64,000 nucleotides of DNA from Brevundimonas vesicularis. GTDB taxonomy: Bacteria > Pseudomonadota > Alphaproteobacteria > Caulobacterales > Caulobacteraceae. This document shows, one piece after another, positions 59,060-62,016 of the stretch (position 1 is the stretch's first letter; every line of letters begins with the position of its first letter). The DNA is taken from assembly GCF_027105095.1 (NCBI RefSeq), contig NZ_CP114278.1, positions 682,001-746,000 of the forward strand. Direction: 5' to 3'. A program made the position numbers and the translations under genes. The notes beneath the pieces were generated by a model. That model ran no database searches and was not told where the DNA came from. It saw only the letters and a program-made list of their open reading frames with translations.

Positions 59060-59101
59060 GGGGGGCACGATTGGGCTTGAGCTGCGCAGCCGCACTCGCT
59101 G

Positions 59102-60586
59102 CTAATTCGAGCCAAGTGCTTTGTGATCTTTGATTTGCTCCAACTGGAAAATCGAAGATGTGAGGTGGCTGAGTAGCCCGACGTTTTGCTCCGAAGCAGT
59201 TTTTGTTGGCATGCCGCAGGTCACAAGGTCGTAAAGAGCGCAGGCACTGGCGAGGCCTTCAATTGCTGGAGTGGCTTTTGGCATTACGTCTTCTCCAGGC
59301 GAGACGCCGTGCGCCGCTATCTGCCTGAGTTCCAACACTGCTGACGTAAGTATCTTCGCCTGTGCGGGTGTTACGACTGAGGAAAGGCCTTCGAAGAGGA
59401 TTTTAAGTCTTTGACCCAGGCTCTGGTTTTGAAGGCCTCCGATGACCCCTTTGATCCGCGCGTCCTCAATGGAAATGTCGTTAGCCTTGGCGGCGGCGAT
59501 TGCCCCTTCAGCAATCAGCTTGGCTTGGCTAGCCGACAGCGCTGGCTTCCCCTTCAGTTCTGTTAAACTCTCTATGCCAGCACACAGAGTCACGATGTCG
59601 TCGAGCGAGCTTCGCTGGCGCATGTGTTTAGCGACATTTTCTATGGAGCTTCTGAATCGCCGCCGCTCATTTTCCTTTTCAATCCACCGCCGCATCACAT
59701 CGGCGAGCGTCCGACGCTCTGCCCATCGATTTAGAGGCACATTGCCAAGCCAAAGTGAAAAGGGCTGGCGCATATCAAGCGGATCATCTTCGTGGTTAGG
59801 GAGATAGAATTCTGCTTCGCGCATTTTGCGACCGCTTCCCGATCTTGCTGAAAGGGAGGTCCAAGGAAGTGGCCGAAGAGCCACCAGCCCAAAGAAACGT
59901 TTCCATTGCCAGGCGGCATCTATCGCTTCGTCGATACCGACCGGCTTATCAAAAATAATGCTGGCGATAGGGTCGGTCTGGAAGTCAATTTTCTTCCATC
60001 CAATGCCGGATTGCGTTGAGCCAATGAATATTTCGTACTGGTGTCGATCTGCCTTGAACTTGAATACCTTTGGGAACTGATGGACGACGAAAATTTCACG
60101 TGGCTTGAAGAGATCGTATGGTCTGCCCTCTTTAGATCGCAGGCGTCGAAGGGCTGCTAACAAATCTTTTGGCGTATCTAGGAGAAAATGCGATTCAACG
60201 TGCTGGTAATGAAAGAAGAGGCTGAGATCTCGCATCGTAAAGGCGATTGATTCTACCTGGTTTCCGTTCACTAGCCCATCTGCCCCTAACACCACGGCAT
60301 TTGGGTAAATGTGTTCCTCGTAGCTCTGCCCAGTATGAGAGTGATGCCGAGTTGAGCTTTTAATCAGGGCGTTGTGCAAGAGGATCGCACGACCATTTGG
60401 ACCCTTAAGCCGGAGTTCAAACCACCCGGCATCGTCCGCATGCCCCAGAAGTGATTGGTCTGACTGGATTACGGCCTCAGACTTGGCCTTGTTTAAGATG
60501 AGGGTTCCGCTTCCAGCATACGCTTGTTCGTCGGTTACAACCGGGGAACTTCCGTGCTTTTGCTCTATTTCGTCAAACCGCTTCAT
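59102..60586 (-). CDS. Candidate ApeA-like HEPN-domain anti-phage protein
   Basis: 494 residues from the ATG at 60586 (the frame is open to 60637). The N-terminal half (about residues 1-230) is beta-rich with regularly spaced Gly, for example GSGTLILNKAKSEAVI, WFELRLKGPNGRAILLHNALI and NGNQVESIAFTMRDLSLFFHYQHV. This is the pattern of ApeA N-terminal domains. The C-terminal half is all helical and carries LELRQIAAHGV, with Arg421 and His426 forming the R-x4-H motif of HEPN ribonucleases. ApeA is a single-gene abortive-infection system. GC is near 50 percent against about 67 percent around it, indicating transfer. The match is by pattern only. It stands alone between an amidohydrolase and dapE. 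Confidence 0.6.
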   Translation of the reverse strand: MKRFDEIEQKHGSSPVVTDEQAYAGSGTLILNKAKSEAVIQSDQSLLGHADDAGWFELRLKGPNGRAILLHNALIKSSTRHHSHTGQSYEEHIYPNAVVLGADGLVNGNQVESIAFTMRDLSLFFHYQHVESHFLLDTPKDLLAALRRLRSKEGRPYDLFKPREIFVVHQFPKVFKFKADRHQYEIFIGSTQSGIGWKKIDFQTDPIASIIFDKPVGIDEAIDAAWQWKRFFGLVALRPLPWTSLSARSGSGRKMREAEFYLPNHEDDPLDMRQPFSLWLGNVPLNRWAERRTLADVMRRWIEKENERRRFRSSIENVAKHMRQRSSLDDIVTLCAGIESLTELKGKPALSASQAKLIAEGAIAAAKANDISIEDARIKGVIGGLQNQSLGQRLKILFEGLSSVVTPAQAKILTSAVLELRQIAAHGVSPGEDVMPKATPAIEGLASACALYDLVTCGMPTKTASEQNVGLLSHLTSSIFQLEQIKDHKALGSN

Positions 60587-60780
60587 GCGCTTGTTATGTG
60601 AGCGTCGACTCCGAAATGCTACCTCCGTCAGGTACACCTTGCCAACCTATTCGGCGGCGTCGAACGACGATGGAGGCGAAAGACAGGTGGAACATCATTT
60701 CTGCTCGCACTAAACGCGCCAGCGCTAGCTCATGGCGCACGTCAAAGACTTATTCAGGATTGAGTCTATTTCCCCCGGCG
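60587..60780. other. Intergenic stretch between the HEPN-type gene and dapE
   Basis: 194 bp of lower-GC sequence without a convincing gene. It contains the region upstream of the HEPN-type gene and the 3' flank of dapE. No tRNA, direct repeat or integrase remnant marks the insertion boundary. The transition to host-like GC occurs close to the dapE stop. Confidence 0.4.
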
Positions 60781-62016
60781 TCACAACCGCTCTAACACCG
60801 TCTCGATCACCCGGCGATAGACCGCCGTCAGGGTCTCCAGCTCCGCCACCGGCACCCGTTCGTCGATCTGGTGCATGGTCTGGCCGACCAGGCCCAGTTC
60901 CAGCACCGGGCACAGGGCGCGGATGAAGCGGGCGTCGGAGGTGCCGCCGGTGGTGGAGGCCTCGGGGCGGCGGCCGGCGACGGCCTCGACCGCGTCCTGA
61001 ACCGCCGCGACGAAGACGCCGGGCTCGGTCCGGAAGGCCTCGCCGGAACACAGGTGGTCCAGGGTGATCTGCAGCCCGGTCTCGGCCTGCATGGCCCCGG
61101 CCTCGCGGTTCAGCCAGTCGATCAAAGCATCGCCCGTATGGCTTGGGTTGAAGCGGATGTTCAGCCGCGCCGTCGCCTGGGCCGGGATGATGTTGGTCGC
61201 CGGATTGCCGATGTCGATGGTGGTGATTTCGAGGTTCGACGGGGGAAAGGCCACGCTCAAGCAGTCCCGCTCCGCGAGCGGGACGCTAGCGTCAAAAGAA
61301 GGATAGCCTTCATCCAGAACGTGATCGTTCAGGCGGGCCATCAGCTTCGCGATCACCGGGGCCGGGTTGGCGGCGCGCTCGGGATAGGCGACGTGGCCTT
61401 GCTTGCCGTGGACGGTGATCCAGGTGTTCAGCGAGCCGCGCCGCCCGACCTTGATCATGTCGCCTAGCTGCTGAGACGACGAAGGTTCGCCGACGACGCA
61501 GGCGTCGATGACCTCGCCCTCGGCGGCCAGCGCTTCGACCACGCGCTTGGTGCCGTGCAGCGCCGGACCTTCCTCGTCGCCGGTGATCAGGAAGGAGAGG
61601 GAGCCGGTGGGTTCACCGTCCGCCAGCACCTGGGACACGGCGGCGACCCAGGCGGCGATCCCGCCCTTCATGTCCACCGCACCGCGGCCGTACAGGACGC
61701 CGTCCCTGACCTCGGCGTTGAAGGGTTGGGAAGACCACTGGTCCGACGGACCGGTCGGGACCACGTCCGTGTGGCCGGCGAAACAGAGGTTGGGCGAGGC
61801 AGTCCCGCGCCGGGCGTACAGGTTCTCGATCCGCGCATGGACGCCCTCGCCGCCCGGTCCCTCGAAGGCCAGGCGGCGGCAGGTGAAGCCCAGCGCCGTC
61901 AGGTGCCGTTCCAGCACATCCATCGCCCCTTCGTCGGCGGGCGTGACGGAGGGAATGCGGATCAGGTCGCGGGTCAGTTCGACAGGATCGATAACGGGAG
62001 TTGATGCGCGGCTCAT
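60781..62016 (-). CDS. dapE: Succinyl-diaminopimelate desuccinylase
   Basis: A 411-residue M20A zinc enzyme of lysine and peptidoglycan precursor synthesis, converting N-succinyl-LL-DAP to LL-DAP. Metal and active-site motifs are LCFAGHTDVVPTG, YGRGAVDMKGGIAAWVAA, LITGDEEGPALHGTKRVVE (catalytic Glu pair), and STTGGTSDARFI with the late His region. The dimerisation domain (GRRGSLNTWITVHGKQGHVAYPERAANP) is intact. The frame is open far upstream, but MSRASTPVIDPVELTRDLIRIPSV from the ATG at 62016 is the family start. It is divergent from the cupin gene across 42 bp. Confidence 0.95.
   Translation of the reverse strand: MSRASTPVIDPVELTRDLIRIPSVTPADEGAMDVLERHLTALGFTCRRLAFEGPGGEGVHARIENLYARRGTASPNLCFAGHTDVVPTGPSDQWSSQPFNAEVRDGVLYGRGAVDMKGGIAAWVAAVSQVLADGEPTGSLSFLITGDEEGPALHGTKRVVEALAAEGEVIDACVVGEPSSSQQLGDMIKVGRRGSLNTWITVHGKQGHVAYPERAANPAPVIAKLMARLNDHVLDEGYPSFDASVPLAERDCLSVAFPPSNLEITTIDIGNPATNIIPAQATARLNIRFNPSHTGDALIDWLNREAGAMQAETGLQITLDHLCSGEAFRTEPGVFVAAVQDAVEAVAGRRPEASTTGGTSDARFIRALCPVLELGLVGQTMHQIDERVPVAELETLTAVYRRVIETVLERL

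Follow-up and report, generated by a model that had tools for sequence, protein, structure and literature searches.

A lone gene of low GC content in Brevundimonas vesicularis encodes a predicted, diverged relative of the ApeA defence proteins

Introduction

Abortive infection is the outcome of ApeA, and its trigger may be short DNA fragments, a lead for which a 2026 preprint title on ApeA is the only source. We take ApeA to be the system of Gao et al. 2020, represented in Pfam by the families ApeA_NTD1 (PF18862) and HEPN_Apea (PF18739). The present study concerns a single gene in a 64,000-base stretch of the genome of Brevundimonas vesicularis (contig NZ_CP114278.1, positions 682,001 to 746,000; referred to as the window), located on the minus strand at 59102..60586 of that stretch and encoding a protein of 494 residues (the query). 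An earlier note, made from the sequence alone, had proposed that the gene is either an ApeA system or one of its diverged relatives. In the portions of PMC7699616 and PMC10952713 that were available, ApeA is described as a defence system containing HEPN domains.

The analysis presented here argues, with good probability, that the query is a diverged ApeA-type protein, in which a beta-rich sensor would hold a HEPN ribonuclease (RNase) inactive until infection is sensed. It is most likely a single-gene, infection-triggered RNase, for which we infer the defence role, the trigger and the RNA target. It also most likely works like ApeA, although it is not called an established ApeA system because its HEPN half is unmatched by HEPN_Apea and its function is judged from the family. 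The earlier proposal is supported in its form of a diverged relative, to which the ApeA_NTD1 match and the profile-profile comparisons point and which, HEPN_Apea being unmatched, is the appropriate level of description. The gene itself, its composition, its homology, the conserved motif, the predicted HEPN-like fold and the patchy distribution are all supported, and a diverged ApeA relative such as this is to be expected and is no surprise.

Results and Discussion

Relationship to the ApeA proteins

The beta-rich N-terminal domain, the presumed sensor, spans approximately residues 12-265 (59792..60553, minus strand), with approximate limits taken from the Pfam match and the strands of a predicted model. 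ApeA_NTD1, the sole Pfam family matching the query, covers residues 64-280 with a score of 26.2 bits against the curated cut-off of 25.5 (hmmscan); an unrelated enzyme family as best match, which the earlier note had named as a refuting result, was not found. Ten homologues of the query were found in all (E < 1e-114), eight of which cover 98-100% of its length, and those relatives that carry names (two of nine proteins, and both loci) are Brevundimonas. Two extra protein searches, each of which scored only the approximately 8000 candidates sharing most words, added one fragment in total. Each of the 10 clade-alignment rows, among them the query, has an ApeA_NTD1 match at E ≤ 10 (2.5e-11 for the strongest), with P0009 well above the cut-off at 44.0 bits and P0005 below it at 18.7. 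P0010, whose C-terminal half could not be aligned, is left out of the counts of nine full-length members given below and of profile A7, and P0011 (228 residues) stands outside the alignments.

The comparison was extended to the whole protein with profile-profile alignment (hhalign). Three ApeA proteins, from a Caballeronia plasmid, from the same order and from the same class, each have both ApeA_NTD1 and HEPN_Apea over cut-off, and the clade aligns with this set at a probability of 97.5% (E 7.3e-12) over 415 columns, with the Rx4H motif of one placed on that of the other. The clade profile without P0010 scores 96.7 against the same set, the maximum of 100 column shuffles being 23.3, and the reversed-profile control scores 18.7 (probability 0.3%). 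Five ApeA proteins with both Pfam domains, carried by the IMG/VR viral contigs L024, L025, L027, L029 and L030 (the last cut short at its 5' end), were found with profiles A4 and A6, so that their match with the clade (97.7%, E 1.4e-12, 432 columns) is not independent of A4, a profile in which L020 had been placed after its likeness to L017 and to the Caballeronia protein was seen. Four unrelated proteins of the window score 14.7-18.5 against the viral-contig set, at probabilities of at most 0.4%. L011, from the same class, which has a borderline ApeA_NTD1 match and none to HEPN_Apea, aligns alone with the clade at 96.9% over 388 columns. It comes from a class survey with ApeA_NTD1 that gave seven places, in which L007, L008, L010, L011 and the query were analysed and L009 and L013 left out; a later class survey gave six, in which L019 and L020 were examined and L020 was used.

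These alignments indicate homology between the C-terminal half and the HEPN part of ApeA proteins, with Rx4-6H in register. Taken alone, this half scores 29.6 against the three-protein set (shuffle maximum 17.7), again with the Rx4H motifs aligned. Several results weigh against the assignment. The C-terminal half alone reaches only 21.6 against the viral-contig set, where the shuffle maximum is 20.2 (motifs aligned), the Caballeronia ApeA protein alone aligns only up to query residue 353, and four ApeA_NTD1 proteins, each taken singly, are unmatched by the clade profile. HEPN_Apea (PF18739) is likewise unmatched at E ≤ 10 in all 10 clade rows, the query included. The clade is thus related to one ApeA branch and far from others.

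It could also be supposed that the protein is unrelated to ApeA, having acquired an Rx4H by chance and a borderline Pfam match. The marginal Pfam score fits this idea, and so does the weakness of the C-terminal match to one of the ApeA sets, as does the ease with which the motif arises: shuffles of the query protein contain 1.09 Rx4H on average, and 68% of them have at least one. The full-length profile-profile matches, made with two ApeA sets and with clean controls, and the 44 bits of P0009 for ApeA_NTD1 leave this explanation nearly refuted and barely credible.

The C-terminal half and its presumed active site

The presumed RNase is a helical, HEPN-like domain at approximately residues 305-456 (59219..59674, minus strand). 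Its presumed catalytic motif, R421-x4-H426 (RQIAAH; 59309..59326, minus strand), lies at the end of helix 407-426 in the predicted structure, and the positions Arg421 and His426 given in the earlier note prove to be numbered correctly. Because 68% of shuffles have such a motif, Rx4H alone carries little weight and it is conservation that counts. R421 and H426 are kept in 9/9 full-length clade members and in 14/14 rows once the five viral-contig ApeA proteins are added, while a second Rx4H of the query, R66/H71, is kept in 9/9 members but in 9/14 rows of the larger alignment. G427 and E339 are also present in all nine members. E339 (59570..59572, minus strand; from the column print-out and the model) is an acidic residue on the earlier helix 328-339, and its place is taken by D in the five viral-contig proteins.

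According to the available part of PMC3710099, the residue after the motif arginine in the HEPN superfamily is typically, though not obligatorily, N, D or H, while helix 2 bears an acidic residue in the pattern Ex3[KR]. In the clade the residue after the equivalent of R421 is Q in seven of the nine members, T in one and I in one; Q and T, though polar, are not among the usual residues. Residue 343 of the query is E, so that Ex3[KR] does not hold at E339. The general description of HEPN domains in PMC3710099 would nevertheless suggest that E339 serves as the HEPN acidic residue.

The replacement of N, found in the five viral-contig ApeA proteins, by Q, T or I, together with the lack of a HEPN_Apea match to the domain, might mean that an ApeA-type scaffold has been kept whose HEPN half has lost its RNase function and acts, for example, only by binding. 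A dead site would be unlikely to show such strict conservation of R421, H426, G427 and E339 in all nine full-length members, and this explanation is accordingly judged very improbable. It is possible, though less likely than not, that the clade is an ApeA subtype of its own, in which the active site has been rebuilt (R-Q/T/I-x-A-A-H-G) and the sensor altered, and which responds to another infection signal or cuts another RNA than characterised ApeA does. The natural change beside the presumed catalytic arginine offers a simple comparison for finding which HEPN residues matter.

Predicted structure

A model built from the 10 clade rows alone had a mean predicted local distance difference test (pLDDT) score of 43.7, too poor for use in fold searches; leaving out P0010 and adding the five viral-contig ApeA proteins to the alignment raised it to 74.9. 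Both a beta-rich N-terminal half and an all-helical C-terminal half, as described in the earlier note, are visible in the predicted structure. Foldseek gave no match at E ≤ 0.001 in the PDB or among viral models. Its top PDB rows were proteins of the Hcp and phage tail-tube kinds; VIA-align superposes these on the N-terminal domain, and the likeness is treated as a common beta-barrel arrangement. The two best VIA-align rows, at modest Z, were 6m6u_H and 5yep_B, from HEPN toxin-antitoxin entries (the chains named as HEPN-family toxins are 5yep_B and, in the second entry, 6m6u_B). The absence of a HEPN fold, the other refuting result that had been named, was not encountered. When PDB sequences were searched, the query, L008 and the A5 profile gave nothing at E ≤ 1, and the A4 profile gave three weak matches only, to one pentatricopeptide repeat (PPR) design and two SelB sequences.

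These structural rows bear on a further explanation, in which the query is a HEPN RNase outside phage defence, a stress toxin or a toxin stabilising a genetic element, with the beta domain as a regulator that responds to a cellular signal. HEPN domains do occur in toxin-antitoxin modules, as the consulted part of PMC3710099 states, and the best solved-structure rows come from such modules. The homologue at locus L001, in another Brevundimonas, moreover adjoins an MNT-HEPN gene and lies approximately 3 kb from a sub-threshold ParB-like helix-turn-helix (HTH) frame. The query itself is flanked by an amidohydrolase gene and dapE with no recognisable antitoxin, although a small unrecognised partner frame is possible, and a known defence protein has the same architecture of ApeA_NTD1 plus HEPN. 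Unlike the MntA-HepT toxins (PDB 6m6u, 5yep), the query joins its HEPN-like domain to a beta domain in one chain, and no nucleotidyltransferase antitoxin is seen beside it. A role as such a toxin is considered unlikely.

If the query is an ApeA-type defence protein, as is preferred here, its N-terminal ApeA_NTD1 domain would keep the C-terminal HEPN RNase inactive and, on sensing a sign of phage infection, would release it. R421 and H426, probably within a HEPN dimer, would then cleave RNA, perhaps tRNA, by which translation would be stopped and the infection aborted. The RNase activity, dimerisation, RNA target and abortive outcome are those that we infer for the query from the ApeA family.

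The gene and its insertion site

The open frame starts at an ATG at 60586 and stops at 59102-59104, while the plus-strand frame over the same interval has many stops. An alternative GTG start 51 bases upstream would give 511 residues, and P0003, one of the nine full-length members, has a 13-residue N-terminal extension. The ATG is preferred because clade members align from its region, where F4, I7 and E8 are invariant. A weak site at 60616..60645 on the minus strand, upstream of the gene and matching 9/12 positions, is promoter-like, which is suggestive only; the region holds two such sites where shuffles give 0.7. Other frames of at least 60 codons in the 1.7-kb stretch are at most 121 residues long and nearly all overlap the gene, and the locus is thus a single-gene one, as in ApeA.

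The gene has a GC content of 51.9% (54.7% at third positions), compared with 63-70% (86-92%) in six nearby genes, and it is the minimum among all 1485-base windows of the 64 kb, whose median is 67.5%, in keeping with the earlier remark that its GC lies far below that of both neighbours; by composition the gene looks foreign. Those neighbours are an M20-type amidohydrolase, which passes an NCBIfam subfamily cut-off, and dapE, which passes an equivalog cut-off. A dapE protein match was found in 40/41 genomes, and loci were obtained for 30 places including the window's own, the 29 others being L032-L060. Both flanking genes are present in 11 of these 29 by blastn, with 39-796 bases between the matches compared with approximately 1.7 kb here; at L053 and L051 only 39 and 57 bases separate them, which corresponds to an empty site. 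In G024, whose locus L032 has the most similar dapE (95%), the stretch 59082..60786 is unmatched and 796 other bases lie between the two flanking matches. At L033 and L036 the sequence from before the amidohydrolase meets dapE within approximately 0.2 kb, the amidohydrolase gene being missing there too. Because relatives' sites are empty or otherwise filled, the amidohydrolase-dapE place is variable and the ApeA-like gene is a lone insertion in it, as had been surmised. Repeats around the gene give no clear insertion signature, and the sole tRNA gene of the window is far off. As a separate observation, the different, low-GC sequence at this site in G024, L032:2600-3440 (841 bases, 56% GC), has a 202-codon frame starting with M, the start of which may, by eye, resemble a lipoprotein signal.

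Distribution and known systems

The host genome is a single contig of 3.12 Mb. The query clade occurs in 3/131 Brevundimonas genomes and, among 385 genomes drawn from the class, only in the query's own. With L011 added to the profile, 2/299 genomes of the order were found, the query's own and G568, whose ApeA was used in the profile comparison. The ApeA_NTD1 family itself matches in 2/131 genus genomes, a figure that misses two other clade genomes, and in 6/289 class genomes, both counts including the query's own. In a tree of 20 rows (seven of them clade members) the clade forms one group (98/100) on a stem of 1.73 changes per column, by which it appears to be a deep side branch of ApeA; its nearest neighbour is unsure because long branches meet at L011, as the tool warned. 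Elsewhere in these surveys, L014:850-2205 in G117, of the same genus, encodes another kind of ApeA in which both Pfam domains are present, and L013:1501-2340 matches ApeA_NTD1 but contains a single in-frame TAG and may be a decayed copy.

No phage match was found with tblastn of the query, which gave one weak match among plasmids (E 0.9), in Caballeronia, to a protein that Pfam identifies as ApeA; L011 had no plasmid match by tblastn. Scans of viral sequences with A1, P0009, L017, L011 and L014 detected no relative. A phage integrase gene is present as well on the viral contig L027, and a phage capsid gene on L030, and for this reason ApeA-type defence seems to have carriers among phages or related elements.

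Compared with ApeA, and the comparison rests on Pfam-defined ApeA proteins rather than the originally tested ones, the query shares a single gene of similar length, ApeA_NTD1 over cut-off, a helical C-terminal half whose Rx4H aligns in register and membership of a scattered family present in viral contigs too. It differs in a HEPN half unmatched by HEPN_Apea, in having Q, T or I rather than N after the arginine, and in its long tree stem. Among seven relatives scanned with PADLOC, the models of the candidate system PDC-S58 give clear matches to L007, L008 and L014 and weak ones to L017 (1.9e-07) and L020 (0.0075), and the Cas13-ApeA models match L007, L008 and L014. The query, in contrast, has no PADLOC or NCBIfam match at E ≤ 10, nor do L011 and the Caballeronia ApeA match PADLOC at E ≤ 1. 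ApeA-type defence would thereby be extended to a branch that surveys with HEPN_Apea, PADLOC and NCBIfam would miss or undercount because these models do not match it. No paper title on the clade was seen among the literature matches listed, only a part of which came from a search by genus name, and this does not prove that there is none.

Other HEPN genes were seen in the genus. The homologue at L001 has neighbours different from those of the query, and the seven surrounding frames scanned against Pfam comprise one MNT-HEPN protein, one sub-threshold ParB-like HTH and five without a match at E ≤ 0.001. The MNT-HEPN gene (nucleotidyltransferase plus HEPN; L001:11541-12572) is convergent to the clade homologue. 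HepT-like matches occur in 17/61 genus genomes, the window's own included, and at L061:1067-1878 in G122 a HepT-like gene immediately follows a frame resembling a nucleotidyltransferase partner for it.
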